Shown here in pieces: positions 58,102-63,511 of a stretch of 64,000 nt of DNA. The notes beneath the pieces were generated by a model that worked only from the letters and a program-made list of their open reading frames with translations, searched no databases and was not told the DNA's origin. Made by a program: the position numbers and the translations under genes. Each line of letters starts with the position of its first letter. Positions within the stretch are counted from its first letter, which is position 1. Origin of the DNA: Thermotoga maritima MSB8. Its GTDB lineage: Bacteria > Thermotogota > Thermotogae > Thermotogales > Thermotogaceae. The stretch spans positions 200,465 through 264,464 of the forward strand of contig NC_000853.1 in the NCBI RefSeq assembly GCF_000008545.1, in the 5' to 3' direction.

Positions 58102-59409
58102 GTGCTCACTTTCAAGGGAGGAGTACACCCCCCGGAATTGAAAGAATGGTCGAAGGACAAACCTATTGAAAGGGCACCTCTACCTCAGAAGGTTTTCGTC
58201 TTTCTTTCCAATCATGCGGGGAACCCGGCGAAACCAGTGGTTTCTCCCGGTGACGAAGTGAAGACCGGTCAGGTTATAGGAGAACCTGAAGGTTTCATTT
58301 CCGCTTATCTGCATTCTCCTGTGACAGGAAGAGTACTCGAGATAAAGAAGATCCTGCACCCAATCCTTGGAAAGCCCATCGAAGCGATCGTTATAGAAAG
58401 AACCTCTGACGATGAGTGGGTTCACATAGAAACTGGGGATTTTGAACGCATGTCGAAAGAAGAAATCCTGGAAATCATCAAAAAAGCGGGAATCGTTGGT
58501 CTGGGTGGAGCGATGTTTCCAACCCACGTTAAACTCTCACCTCCTCCCGAGAAAAAAGTGGATACCTTGATCGTCAACGGGGCGGAGTGTGAACCCGTTC
58601 TCACGATAGATCACAGACTCATGCTAGAAAGAGCCGAGGACATCCTCCAGGGAATCCTGATAATGATGAAGGTTCTGGGGGTTCAAAAAGCCGTAGTCGG
58701 TGTAGAGAGCAACAAGATGGATGCGTACCACAATTTGAAAAAGGTTTTCAAGGGATATCCCGTTGATGTTGCTCTCCTCAGGACCAAATATCCGCAGGGT
58801 GCAGAAAAGCAGCTCATATACGCGATAACCGGAAGGATGGTACCGAGAGGCGGTCTTCCAATGGATGTTGGAGTGGTGGTCCAGAACGTCGGTACCTGTG
58901 TTGCTGTGAAGGAAGCGGTCGTCGATGGAAAACCGCTCGTGGAAAGAGGTATGACAGTCAGCGGTGATGCCGTGAAAAATCAGAAAAATCTGATCGTCAG
59001 AATAGGGACACCCGTGAAGGATGTTATCGACTACTGTGGTGGAATAGATGAGAACACGGAGCGTGTCATCCTCGGTGGCCCGATGATGGGAATATCCATC
59101 ACAAATCTGGACATCCCTGTTATGAAAGGAACTTCTGGAATAACCGCGTTTCTTCCAAAGAAGTCTCGACCTCAGAAACCCTGTATTAGATGCAGTGAAT
59201 GTGTTCAGGTGTGTCCGATGAACCTTCAGCCTTACCTTCTCTATCTCCTCTCCACGAAGAGAAAGTACGACGAAGCTGTGGAAAACGGTTTGATGGACTG
59301 TATAGAGTGCGGCTCGTGTACCTACACCTGTCCTTCGAAGATAGAACACGTAAGGTACATAAAACTCGCAAAAACAGTGTATCGCGCCACAAGGAGGGGT
59401 AGAAGATGA
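58102..59409 (+). CDS. rnfC: RNF complex subunit RnfC
   Basis: 435 residues: TFKGGVHPPELKEWSKDKPI opening, the NADH/FMN region GLGGAMFPTHVKLSPP, NGAECEPVLTIDHR, and two [4Fe-4S] motifs CIRCSECVQVCP and CIECGSCTYTCP. It is the NAD-side entry module of the Na+- or H+-pumping ferredoxin:NAD oxidoreductase. The open frame extends upstream into the radical SAM gene, but GGAGGTGA fixes the start at GTG 58102. Confidence 0.95.
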   Translation: MLTFKGGVHPPELKEWSKDKPIERAPLPQKVFVFLSNHAGNPAKPVVSPGDEVKTGQVIGEPEGFISAYLHSPVTGRVLEIKKILHPILGKPIEAIVIERTSDDEWVHIETGDFERMSKEEILEIIKKAGIVGLGGAMFPTHVKLSPPPEKKVDTLIVNGAECEPVLTIDHRLMLERAEDILQGILIMMKVLGVQKAVVGVESNKMDAYHNLKKVFKGYPVDVALLRTKYPQGAEKQLIYAITGRMVPRGGLPMDVGVVVQNVGTCVAVKEAVVDGKPLVERGMTVSGDAVKNQKNLIVRIGTPVKDVIDYCGGIDENTERVILGGPMMGISITNLDIPVMKGTSGITAFLPKKSRPQKPCIRCSECVQVCPMNLQPYLLYLLSTKRKYDEAVENGLMDCIECGSCTYTCPSKIEHVRYIKLAKTVYRATRRGRR

Positions 59410-60362
59410 AGCTGATAAGCGCTTACGCTCCACACCTTCGAGAAGAGGATGATGTGAGAAAGATCATGCTGGATGTGCTCATAGCCCTATCACCAGCGGT
59501 TATTGGGGCGGCTTATTTCTTCGGATGGTATGCTCTATTTCTCTGTATCGCAGGAGCGGTGATAGGTGAGCTGTTCGATATATTCGTCATGAGATACCTG
59601 AGAGGAGTGAAGGATTTCGTCCCGGATGGCAGCGGGGCAGTGACAGGACTGCTTCTGGCGATGAACGTGAGCACAAGGCTTCCTTTCTGGGCTTTTTTGT
59701 TGGGACTCGTTTTCGCTCTGGGGATCGGGAAACACGTGTTCGGAGGACTCGGCCAGAACATTTTCAACCCTGCGCTCGTCGGAAGAGCGTTTCTGCTCAT
59801 TTCTTTTCCCACTTACATGACCACCTGGGTTGTACCCGGGGCAGGATTCTGGAAATCTCCAGCGGATGTGGTAACGGCAGCAACTCCTCTTGCACTTTTC
59901 AAGGAACACGGTGTTTTCACACCCTATTGGGATCTGTTCATAGGTAAGGTTGGAGGATCCTTAGGTGAAACGAGTGCACTTCTTCTCATAATTGGTTTCA
60001 TCTATCTTCTCTTGAGAAAGAGAGTGAAGATATTCATTCCTGTCTCCTATATAGGAACTGTTCTTGTGTTTTCTTCGATAGCTTATTTGATGAATCCAAG
60101 GTACGGTGATCCTCTCTTTCACCTCCTCAGTGGTGGTCTCATGCTCGGTGCACTTTTCATGGCCACCGATATGGTGACGAGTCCCATCACCGCGAAGGGA
60201 CAGGTGATCTTCGGGATTGGATGTGGCGTTCTCACGATGGCTATAAGACTCTTTGGAGCGTATCCTGAAGGCGTTTCATTTTCGATCCTTTTCATGAATG
60301 CACTGGTTCCCCTGATAGACAGGTACACCAGACCGCGCATCTTCGGTGAGGTGAAAAAATGA
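59406..60362 (+). CDS. rnfD: RNF complex subunit RnfD
   Basis: 318 residues, about nine or ten helices; DGSGAVTGLLLAMNVSTRLP and the covalent-FMN site VTAATPLALF (Thr in the S/T-x-AT-PL motif). A core membrane subunit. ATGA overlap with rnfC. Confidence 0.94.
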   Translation: MKLISAYAPHLREEDDVRKIMLDVLIALSPAVIGAAYFFGWYALFLCIAGAVIGELFDIFVMRYLRGVKDFVPDGSGAVTGLLLAMNVSTRLPFWAFLLGLVFALGIGKHVFGGLGQNIFNPALVGRAFLLISFPTYMTTWVVPGAGFWKSPADVVTAATPLALFKEHGVFTPYWDLFIGKVGGSLGETSALLLIIGFIYLLLRKRVKIFIPVSYIGTVLVFSSIAYLMNPRYGDPLFHLLSGGLMLGALFMATDMVTSPITAKGQVIFGIGCGVLTMAIRLFGAYPEGVSFSILFMNALVPLIDRYTRPRIFGEVKK

Positions 60363-61033
60363 AGGATATCCTGAAGACTGGATTGATTCTGATGGTTTTC
60401 ACGGCTATTTCTGGACTCTTTCTTGGACTCGTGTATGTGGGAGTCAAAGGAAAGATCCAGGAAGCGGATAACGCAGCTAAGTTGAGCGCCATCAAATTCG
60501 TTCTGAAAGATCCCCTCACGGGAGATTATCTGGTGGATGAAAAAGAAATCGAGGAAATCGTCAAAAAAACAGGCATAGAAACGGTTGTTCTGAAAGAGTA
60601 CAAAGAAGGGGTAGTCCTTGGTCCCTTGTATGAATTCGTGACGAAGGATGGCAGAAACGCATACGTTCTGTCGGGATACGCACCCGGTTTTGGAGGAAAC
60701 GTGACCGTTGTAGCCTGTTTTATAAAAACGGAAGATGGATTCATGCTCAATTCCGTGAGAGTAATAGATTATTCTCAGGAGACGCCTGGACTCGGCGCAA
60801 AGATAGGAGAAGAAAGTATACAGAGGCGTTTCTTTCCAGTTCCACCCGAAGGACTGAAGAACGGCCTGAGGGTCGACAAAGATGCGGGACTTCCGAAGGG
60901 TTCTCCTGAGGAGTTGAAAAAGCAGGGTATTGTGAAGGTAAGCGATGTAATGACGGGAGCAACGATCACACCAAGGGCCGTGGTGACCGCTCTGAATCTC
61001 ATGTACAGGTACCTCGAGGAGGTGTCGAAATGA
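60359..61033 (+). CDS. rnfG: RNF complex subunit RnfG
   Basis: 224 residues: one N-terminal helix (GLILMVFTAISGLFLGLVYV), then an extracytoplasmic FMN-binding domain with the flavinylation motif MTGATITPRAV (Thr bearing FMN). SQETPGLGAKI is the usual preceding motif. Flavinylation needs an ApbE-type transferase, not seen in the window. Confidence 0.94.
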   Translation: MKDILKTGLILMVFTAISGLFLGLVYVGVKGKIQEADNAAKLSAIKFVLKDPLTGDYLVDEKEIEEIVKKTGIETVVLKEYKEGVVLGPLYEFVTKDGRNAYVLSGYAPGFGGNVTVVACFIKTEDGFMLNSVRVIDYSQETPGLGAKIGEESIQRRFFPVPPEGLKNGLRVDKDAGLPKGSPEELKKQGIVKVSDVMTGATITPRAVVTALNLMYRYLEEVSK

Positions 61034-61632
61034 GCCGCTTGAGAGAATTAACTAAGGGGATCATAAAAGAGAATCCCACTTATGTTCAGGTTCTTGGAAT
61101 GTGTCCCACACTCGCCGTCACCACGAGTGCCATCAACGGTCTGGGGATGGGGCTTGCTACGACAGCCGTTCTCACCATGTCAAACGTGGTTATTTCACTG
61201 ATAAGAAAGATCGTTCCTGATAAGATCAGAATTCCTATATTCATCGTTGTTATCGCGTCTTTCGTTACCATGATAGATCTCCTCATGCACGGTTTTGCCT
61301 ACGATCTGTGGAAGACCCTGGGACTTTTCATTCCTCTCATAGTGGTGAACTGTATCATAATGGGAAGGGCGGAATCGTTCGCTTCCAAGCATGGTGTTCT
61401 GGATTCCATGCTCGATGGCCTGGGAGTGGGTCTCGGTTTCACAGGTTCGCTTGTTCTCCTTGGAAGCGTCAGAGAACTCTTCGGTAACGGTACGATCTTC
61501 GGTTACAAAGTGTGGGAGTTGAAGATATTTCTTGAAATTCTTCCACCGGGAGCCTACATAACACTCGGTCTTCTCTCTGCACTCTTCACCTACATCGGCA
61601 TCAGGAGAAAGAAAAGAGGTGAAGCGAAATGA
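61030..61632 (+). CDS. rnfE: RNF complex subunit RnfE
   Basis: 200 residues, about six helices. GMCPTLAVTTSAINGLGMG and VVNCIIMGRAE hold the conserved Cys pair that, with RnfA, binds an intramembrane [2Fe-2S] cluster. ATGA overlaps on both sides. Confidence 0.95.
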   Translation: MSRLRELTKGIIKENPTYVQVLGMCPTLAVTTSAINGLGMGLATTAVLTMSNVVISLIRKIVPDKIRIPIFIVVIASFVTMIDLLMHGFAYDLWKTLGLFIPLIVVNCIIMGRAESFASKHGVLDSMLDGLGVGLGFTGSLVLLGSVRELFGNGTIFGYKVWELKIFLEILPPGAYITLGLLSALFTYIGIRRKKRGEAK

Positions 61633-62204
61633 AGGTGTTTTTGCTCTTCTTTTCTGCCATATTCGTGAACAACTTCGTTCTGGCGAGGTTTCTCGGGATT
61701 TGTCCCTTCCTGGGGGTCTCCAAAAGGTTGGAAACGGCAACAGGAATGGGTATAGCCGTTACGTTCGTTATGACGGTTTCTGCTGCCATCAGCTGGTTTC
61801 TGGACAAGCTCCTTATCTCCACAGGACTTGAATTTCTGAGAACGATCGTCTTCATACTCGTCATCGCTTCTTTCGTCCAGTTCGTCGAACTGTTTTTGAA
61901 GAAAACCAGCCCGGATCTCTACGAAGCGCTTGGTATTTTCCTGCCTCTCATCACCACAAACTGTGCGATCCTCGGTATGGTGCTTTTGAACAGTCTCATG
62001 AAGCTCAACTTTGTTGAGGCGGTCTTCCACGCACTGGGATCTGGTCTTGGATTTGCTCTTGCTCTTGTGATATTCGCCGGAATAAGGGAAAAAATGGATC
62101 TCTACGATCTGCCGGAGCCTTTCAAAGGCACCGCCATAGCCCTCATCACCGCGGGACTTCTTTCGCTTGCTTTCATGGGATTCCAGGGAATGGTGAAGCT
62201 GTGA
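61629..62204 (+). CDS. rnfA: RNF complex subunit RnfA
   Basis: 191 residues, about six helices, a paralogue of RnfE in opposite topology. FLGICPFLGVSKRLETA and TTNCAILGMVLLN carry the matching cysteines. ATGA overlap with rnfE; followed after 13 bases by rnfB. Confidence 0.95.
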   Translation: MKVFLLFFSAIFVNNFVLARFLGICPFLGVSKRLETATGMGIAVTFVMTVSAAISWFLDKLLISTGLEFLRTIVFILVIASFVQFVELFLKKTSPDLYEALGIFLPLITTNCAILGMVLLNSLMKLNFVEAVFHALGSGLGFALALVIFAGIREKMDLYDLPEPFKGTAIALITAGLLSLAFMGFQGMVKL

Positions 62205-62217
62205 GGAGGTGAAGGAG

Positions 62218-62511
62218 TTGGAAGTCATCTACTCGACGCTCTTGCTCGCTGTTCTGGGTTTTGGGTTCGGGGCTTTTCTTGCCTATTCTGCGCAAAGATT
62301 CAAGGTGGAAGAAGATCCACGTGTGAAGATGATAACGGAGGTTCTTCCTGGAATAAACTGTGGCGCGTGCGGTTTTGCCGGGTGTGAAGCCTACGCGAAG
62401 GCGATCGTGAAGGGTCAGGCGGAAACGAACAGGTGTCTCCCCGGAAGACCTCAGGGTGTCGAAGAGAAGATAAAGAAGATTCTCGAGGAGTACAAGAATG
62501 TCTCCTCTTGA
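62218..62511 (+). CDS. rnfB: RNF complex subunit RnfB, short form without the ferredoxin domain
   Basis: 97 residues from TTG 62218 (AGGAGGTGA five bases upstream): one helix (about 5-23), then the [4Fe-4S] motif GINCGACGFAGC...C with C48, C51, C56 and C73. RnfB of most bacteria continues with one or more two-cluster ferredoxin modules (total roughly 190-330 residues); here the chain stops just after the first domain, and dprA starts inside its end, so no missing part lies downstream. The usual ferredoxin-docking route must be replaced by another protein. Confidence 0.88.
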   Translation: MEVIYSTLLLAVLGFGFGAFLAYSAQRFKVEEDPRVKMITEVLPGINCGACGFAGCEAYAKAIVKGQAETNRCLPGRPQGVEEKIKKILEEYKNVSS

Positions 62512-63511
62512 GATGGCTCTGCTCGTTCATCGTGGTGAGTTCCATCTTCGGGAACTGGAACCGGAGTTACCTCTCGAAAAATTTCTGAAGAACGCGGATC
62601 CAAAAAAGACGAGGAAGTTTCTTGAAAAGTGCGGAAAAGAAGAATTAGAAAGGCAAAAGGAACTGATAAGGAAACACAATGTGAAGCTCGTTTCGTTCTG
62701 GGAAGATGACTACCCCCAGCACTTGAGGGAGATCAGGTATCCGCCAGCTGTTCTTTTTGTGAGGGGCGATGCTGAGCTCTTGAAAGAAAAGTGTGTGGGA
62801 GTTGTGGGAACAAGAAGACCCACAAGTTATGGAGTGAACGTCACAAAGCGCTTTGTTAAACTGCTGAGCGAATACTTTGTGATCGTTTCCGGCATGGCGT
62901 TTGGAATAGATTCCGTTGCACACAAGGAAGCCCTGAGTTCTGGAGGAAAGACGGTGGCGGTTCTCGGCACAGGAGTGGATGTTGTTTATCCGCGATCGAA
63001 CGAACGACTCTTCCATGAAATTGTGAAAAACGGGTGTGTTGTCAGTGAGTATCCAATGGGAACTCGTGCTCGAAAACATCATTTTCCAGCGAGAAATCGA
63101 ATCATAGCGGGTCTTTCTGATGCGATCATCGTCACAGAGGCTCCCATCAAAAGCGGTGCACTCATAACGGTGAAGTTTGCTCTGGAAAGCGGTCGTGATG
63201 TGTTCGCCGTTCCCGGTGATATAGATAGGAAGACCAGCGAAGGTACGAACTATCTGATAAAGTCAGGTGCCTATCCCCTCACCGACGAGGAAGACCTTGA
63301 AACTCATTTTGGAATCAGAAGAATCGCTTCCCCATCGCTCGATGATGACAAAAAGAAGATCTACGATCTGTTGAGAAGTTCGCCAAAAACAGTCGATGAG
63401 CTTGTTGAAGAATTGGGGTGGAGCGTTTCGGAGGTCCTCAGGGTGATATCGGAGATGGAACTGATGGGAATGATCTGGTTCGACGGCGGTGCATACAGAT
63501 TGCTGGGGTGA
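62498..63511 (+). CDS. dprA: DNA processing protein DprA
   Basis: 337 residues: a short N-terminal helical part, the Rossmann-like core with VGTRRPTSYG, SGMAFGIDSVAHKEAL, LGTGVDVVYPRSN, FPARNRIIAGLSDAIIVTEA, and a C-terminal winged-helix (about 275-335). It loads RecA on incoming single-stranded DNA in natural transformation. The ATG overlaps rnfB by 14 bases. Confidence 0.95.
   Translation: MSPLEMALLVHRGEFHLRELEPELPLEKFLKNADPKKTRKFLEKCGKEELERQKELIRKHNVKLVSFWEDDYPQHLREIRYPPAVLFVRGDAELLKEKCVGVVGTRRPTSYGVNVTKRFVKLLSEYFVIVSGMAFGIDSVAHKEALSSGGKTVAVLGTGVDVVYPRSNERLFHEIVKNGCVVSEYPMGTRARKHHFPARNRIIAGLSDAIIVTEAPIKSGALITVKFALESGRDVFAVPGDIDRKTSEGTNYLIKSGAYPLTDEEDLETHFGIRRIASPSLDDDKKKIYDLLRSSPKTVDELVEELGWSVSEVLRVISEMELMGMIWFDGGAYRLLG

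Follow-up and report, generated by a model that had tools for sequence, protein, structure and literature searches.

A minimal RnfB without a ferredoxin module in the RNF complex of Thermotoga maritima and across the Thermotogota

The best explanation of the rnf locus of Thermotoga maritima is that it encodes a complete RNF complex whose electron-input subunit is minimal, an RnfB that ends shortly after a membrane helix and a single small [4Fe-4S] domain (FdI). It is probable that ferredoxin docks directly on this mobile domain, which then serves RnfA/E, and that the polyferredoxin tail of other RnfB proteins is optional. An RnfB with one FdI domain, or with that domain doubled, is the rule in the whole phylum Thermotogota. 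The FdI-only state is stable over the phylum and recurs in at least two bacterial lineages beyond it.

The rnf locus and its RnfB

The window analysed here is a stretch of 64,000 nucleotides from the genome of T. maritima MSB8, which consists of one contig of 1,860,725 bases. The genes stand in the order rnfCDGEAB (58102-62511), with rnfC, D, G, E and A all directly upstream of rnfB and each subunit above the cut-off of its family (Table 1). The rnfB coding frame runs over 62218-62508 and closes with a TGA stop at 62509-62511, and an AGGAGG sequence at 62204-62209 lies eight bases 5' of its TTG start. A GTG at 62209 offers an alternative start, which is less likely because it overlaps this ribosome site. 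The initial annotation described a chain of 97 residues with a membrane helix and one [4Fe-4S] motif, with dprA beginning within the last rnfB codons, and both statements were confirmed: the frame has that length, a Pfam scan returned PF04060 alone, the protein has four cysteines only, and the dprA start at 62498 gives a 14-base overlap in a different frame. The further claim that the C-terminal ferredoxin module is missing also held, as the Pfam scan of RnfB gave no Fer4 match before the frame stops at 97 aa and the other frames of the T. maritima rnfB locus contain no ferredoxin module.

Table 1. Features of the T. maritima rnf locus, with positions in the window
Feature	Coordinates	Strand	Details
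rnfC	58102..59409	+	TIGR01945 647 bits; two [4Fe-4S] motifs of its own
rnfD	59406..60362	+	TIGR01946 409 bits
rnfG	60359..61033	+	TIGR01947 208 bits
rnfE	61030..61632	+	TIGR01948 291 bits
rnfA	61629..62204	+	TIGR01943 290 bits
rnfB	62218..62511	+	97 aa; TTG start; Shine-Dalgarno 62204-62209; TIGR01944 80.5 bits, cut-off 68.7
RnfB transmembrane helix, residues 2-27	62221..62298	+	AlphaFold2 model, mean pLDDT 95
RnfB FdI/B8-type [4Fe-4S] domain, residues 34-80 (C48, C51, C56, C73)	62317..62457	+	PF04060 2.1e-15; fold match to A. woodii RnfB 9eri_B and CFeSP N-terminal domains
RnfB C-terminal helix, residues 81-95	62458..62502	+	AlphaFold2 model; alignment to 7zc6_B, 9eri_B and 8ahx_B stops at about profile position 89
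dprA	62498..63511	+	TIGR00732 255 bits; neighbour gene, outside RNF

The match to TIGR01944 spans residues 7-93 of a 100-aa frame and exceeds the curated cut-off, which makes the protein a member of the RnfB subfamily, and the layout of that subfamily, an N-terminal membrane helix followed by a PF04060 iron-sulfur domain with four cysteines, is present. A C-terminal Fer4 module is found in most TIGR01944 members, yet it is dispensable for passing the subfamily cut-off. The full-length RnfB equivalogs NF005503 and PRK05113 matched over their first 80-90 positions only, with 82.6 and 74.9 bits against cut-offs of 252 and 203, and by these scores the protein lies outside both. The only other RnfB-like match in the genome is an unrelated iron-sulfur protein of 230 aa with a PF04060-like stretch (L002:1351-2043, genome position 1436788); it adjoins hydrogenase-like genes, a context judged by eye.

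The AlphaFold2 model, built from the window and locus sequences, places an FdI fold between the membrane helix and the end helix, and the latter marks the point where other RnfBs run on into their ferredoxin module. The best solved match in a Foldseek search with this model was chain 9eri_B, the RnfB of Acetobacterium woodii, followed by the [4Fe-4S] domains of the corrinoid iron-sulfur protein CFeSP; the probabilities were 0.99-1.00, and the weak E-values (0.002-0.16) are expected because the FdI domain is so small. The solved RnfBs 7zc6_B, 9eri_B and 8ahx_B align with the T. maritima protein over profile positions 4-89 and then continue into modules that are absent here. From the cysteine pattern and the fold, FdI is predicted to bind a [4Fe-4S] cluster.

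Relation to known complexes

The same rnfCDGEAB complex was the subject of Kuhns et al. 2020 (PMC7414866), and the RnfB that they reported, a protein of just 10.56 kDa for which one [4Fe-4S] centre is predicted, shows no difference from the one described here. According to these authors, T. maritima membranes and the purified complex oxidise Clostridium pasteurianum ferredoxin, and the complex carries out ferredoxin-dependent NAD reduction and Na+ transport. The purified preparation gave more than six bands, mass spectrometry of it identified only RnfC, D and G, with RnfB not among them, and the authors describe the number of iron-sulfur clusters as still to be established. The one-cluster RnfB of T. 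maritima, surprise included, was already published at that time. Vitt et al. 2022 (PMC9588780) described the shortened protein as the FdI domain only and proposed a swinging movement of FdI, with the ferredoxin module at one end and the RnfA/E Fe site at the other.

RnfB of Clostridium tetanomorphum (7zc6; PMC9588780) shares the transmembrane helix and the mobile FdI over the aligned positions, but it runs on into FdII+III with five more clusters, and this additional part binds RnfC. The A. woodii counterpart of FdI was named B8 by Kumar et al. 2025 (PMC11889175), who mutated its cysteines to test the electron path and identified B8 as the terminal RnfB carrier to RnfA/E. B8 has the same fold as the T. 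maritima domain, whereas the A. woodii protein (9eri) carries another seven [4Fe-4S] clusters, the presumed docking region for ferredoxin. The Azotobacter vinelandii protein (8ahx) has the same N-terminal half (68.5 bits) and differs by a C-terminal ferredoxin domain with two additional [4Fe-4S] clusters, as tabulated in a 2025 review (PMC12174285), which gives the C-terminal domain of the structurally characterised RnfBs two to seven clusters. Outside RNF, the N-terminal [4Fe-4S] domain of the CFeSP large subunit (4djd, 2ycl) has the same small one-cluster fold, but it is part of a soluble acetyl-CoA pathway protein without a membrane helix or an RNF partner. NqrF of the Na+-NQR works alike, with a single membrane helix and a mobile domain whose one cluster feeds the NqrD/E cluster; it differs in its [2Fe-2S] cluster and its NADH/FAD input domain and is described as structurally unrelated to RnfB (PMC12174285).

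Single and doubled FdI in the Thermotogota

A total of 103 Thermotogota genomes were searched with TIGR01944, and the DNA around the best match was examined in 99. RnfB had a single FdI domain in 83 of these 99 genomes and a tandem FdI in the other 16, all of them Kosmotogaceae, and on native RnfB a Fer4-type ferredoxin module was found in none of the 99. The initial annotation had treated the short protein as an oddity and recommended a comparison of lengths across the phylum; the comparison gave a length of 97 aa for each of the seven Thermotoga genomes and of 90-106 aa across most of the phylum, so that the short form proved to be the norm, besides being already published for T. maritima. 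Across 11 diverse short RnfBs, 22 columns are invariant and the four cysteines are all kept. The families are labelled here f9 for Kosmotogaceae (L177), f2 for Pseudothermotoga (L173), f8 for that of Athalassotoga (L176) and f10 for Petrotoga (L178). The Petrotoga-type proteins have an additional helical tail and a length of 115-119 aa, and one f3 row that had been scored as a long RnfB was an artefact, an N-terminal extension of a stop-to-stop frame.

The only canonical polyferredoxin RnfB in the survey, a protein of 268 aa with 21 cysteines, came from one genome (G102, locus L131), where it sits on the 5.5-kb contig of a second, divergent RNF. RnfE+RnfA of this second complex group with an Omnitrophota locus (support 99), a placement that marks it as a foreign copy, either by transfer or as a contaminant.

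Adjacency of rnfB and dprA is confined to f1-f3. In several families, namely f3, f11 and parts of f10, the rnfB gene stands apart from rnfCDGEA, yet is still short. At the loci L096-L115 and L133-L152, dprA is still beside rnfB, and rnfCDGEA is found at another place in the genome. The idea of an orphan short RnfB without an RNF was rejected, as the genomes in which rnfB stands apart have an intact rnfCDGEA operon at a distance from it.

A normal long RnfB had been suspected in the Kosmotogaceae from the lengths of the open reading frames and was likewise rejected. Their proteins (L049-L064) have about 230 aa, 8-9 cysteines, two PF04060 domains and no Fer4; they consist of the FdI-plus-helical-tail unit in duplicate, and the predicted structure of this tandem protein (pLDDT 86) shows one and the same helix pattern twice. 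The second FdI copies form one clade (100/100) with 26-43% identity to the first copies, in a short alignment that leaves their exact origin undecided. The best explanation is that the second FdI domain occupies the place of the polyferredoxin tail.

A separate observation concerns a second set of rnfD/E/A-like genes in about 53 Thermotogota genomes, which is absent from T. maritima. In the five loci that were read (L165, L166, L169, L171, L106), with further loci at L167, L168, L170 and L172, the set has the order nqrB-C-D-E-nqrF followed by a conserved protein of 150-160 aa, with no nqrA. The small protein has no Pfam match and was present in all eight tested genomes with the nqr-like set and not in T. 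maritima, and no NqrA above the cut-off was found in any of the 103 genomes. These bacteria are not known to make quinones. A 2014 study reported nqr as absent from the Thermotogae (PMC4014512). An NQR without NqrA in this phylum merits a separate study.

Recurrence and history of the module-free state

Relatives were sampled from a genome collection of 257 billion bases, with 80 of 585 kept, 74 of them outside the Thermotogota. Nearly all of these 74 carry ferredoxin motifs, and among the 80 of 585 there were three complete proteins from other phyla without one (L186, L225, L246), each encoded directly after rnfA. Their orders were followed further. Only a small number of proteins were compared at the level of single residues, and many of the source genomes are metagenome-assembled. 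The N-domain matches listed for one Bacilli-like order, that of G105, all have open frames of 102-136 aa (about 90 genomes), and those listed for a second, that of G104, all have frames of 71-159 aa (at least 67 genomes). The third order, that of G103, has a short RnfB in five of eight genomes and a long one in three, and the short forms stop exactly at the boundary between FdI and the ferredoxin module of the long forms. The FdI-only rnfB comes after rnfE-rnfA in both Bacilli-like orders and in the five G103-order genomes.

On an unrooted RnfE+RnfA tree (85 rows, 400 columns), three changes are needed to account for the module-free state, in the Thermotogota (support 100), in a Bacilli-like clade (92) and in a subclade of the G103 order (100). 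At least three lineages lack the tail, having lost it or, in the Thermotogota, possibly never gained it; gain and loss there cannot be separated because the tree is unrooted. Loss is the simple reading in the G103 order. A history in which the single FdI is ancestral in the Thermotogota and the long RnfBs elsewhere gained their module is compatible with direct docking and deserves tentative consideration, as the Thermotogota RNF forms one clade without a native long form and the count of changes on the unrooted tree fits gain as well as loss. It remains rather doubtful, with long RnfBs from many scattered phyla surrounding that clade and the short form nested among long ones in the G103 order.

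As far as the literature searched shows, the new elements are the lack of Fer4 on native Thermotogota RnfB, the recurrence of the FdI-only form, the unlinked short rnfB and the rarity of a ferredoxin gene alongside it. The search, made among freely available papers, found no paper on the breadth of module-free RnfB or on tandem FdI, and the passages of PMC7414866 consulted contain no treatment of the rest of the phylum, the tandem form, unlinked rnfB or recurrence elsewhere.

Two features of these orders were noted in passing. In the G103 order (L186:6350-10015, L266, L267), the rnf operon continues with genes for large membrane proteins which, judged by eye, resemble subunits of the Mrp/Mnh antiporter or of the NuoL/N type; if so, the arrangement would be an RNF-antiporter operon. 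Many G104-order genomes have at least two RnfB N-domain genes, some encoding 127 aa, which suggests several RNF copies per cell.

Ferredoxin input to a short RnfB

RnfB would act in these complexes as a membrane-anchored, mobile one-cluster shuttle, equivalent to the domain called FdI or B8 in larger RnfBs. Reduced soluble ferredoxin would dock directly on FdI, at the face to which the ferredoxin module delivers electrons in larger proteins, and FdI would then swing to RnfA/E and pass the electron on to the [2Fe-2S] cluster in the membrane. In this view the polyferredoxin tail would be an optional wire and docking aid. In Thermotogota RnfB the net charge of the FdI core lies about four units above that in long RnfBs, with values of +0.7 for the single form, +3.1 for the tandem form and -3.1 for the long proteins, and a basic stretch (PGK/PGR) follows the fourth cysteine. 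Such a region would suit the docking of an acidic ferredoxin, but it is given little weight because on average (-3.05) it is not shared by the short RnfBs from other lineages, and positive charge was rejected as a feature of short RnfBs in general. An altered RnfC tail was also rejected as a compensation: RnfC keeps its own clusters alongside the short RnfB, and its basic tail of 22-26 aa is much like those in long-RnfB complexes.

The initial annotation left the choice between another protein that supplies the module and direct docking, and suggested a search for a ferredoxin gene near RNF-like genes. The search was run on 100 Thermotogota rnfB loci, and within about 9 kb of rnfB there were almost no ferredoxin-motif open reading frames other than RnfC, the exceptions being three f8 loci with frames of 69-92 aa and a few unrelated frames scattered over other loci. 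An unlinked small 2[4Fe-4S] protein that replaces the missing module as a dissociable seventh subunit is unlikely. Several dicluster ferredoxin-like proteins are encoded in the T. maritima genome, and the extra bands in the purified preparation (PMC7414866) would fit such a partner. The candidates examined, a part of the whole and named by eye from sequence and neighbours, were PorD and a similar subunit from a different oxidoreductase operon, ATPases into which clusters are inserted, and some larger enzymes, and they sit in 2-oxoacid oxidoreductase and ATPase operons; moreover, if such a protein were needed in three unrelated lineages, linkage would be expected somewhere. We infer direct docking of ferredoxin on FdI, which is favoured because so few ferredoxin frames lie near rnfB, the examined dicluster proteins belong elsewhere and soluble ferredoxin drives the purified complex (PMC7414866).

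It is very improbable that RnfB is degenerating in an RNF that is partly or wholly inactive or has a side role only: the short chain and the unlinked rnfB of f3, f11 and parts of f10 could be read in that way, but the conserved columns and cysteines, the intact rnfCDGEA in the same genomes and the Na+ transport reported for the purified complex (PMC7414866) argue against it. A sequencing error or frameshift that hides a downstream ferredoxin domain, which the initial annotation had also discounted, can be dismissed because of the constant length in Thermotoga and the similar lengths across the phylum, together with dprA directly after rnfB and, downstream of L186, L225 and L246, frames without a ferredoxin motif, TGA read-through included.

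Implications

Since RnfB is short or doubled throughout the phylum and the short form recurs elsewhere, the ferredoxin tail is probably a dispensable add-on. On balance, it seems that FdI alone is a sufficient ferredoxin port, with the tail missing in at least three lineages, and that the Kosmotogaceae have duplicated FdI into a two-domain relay that is undescribed in the literature searched. If FdI is enough, a long RnfB truncated after about residue 95 should keep some activity. The module-free complexes are a natural set for testing the ferredoxin docking site and the role of the long iron-sulfur wire, with the T. maritima complex as the simplest system for mapping ferredoxin docking, and module-free RnfB merits treatment as a widespread type and not as the oddity of a single species.
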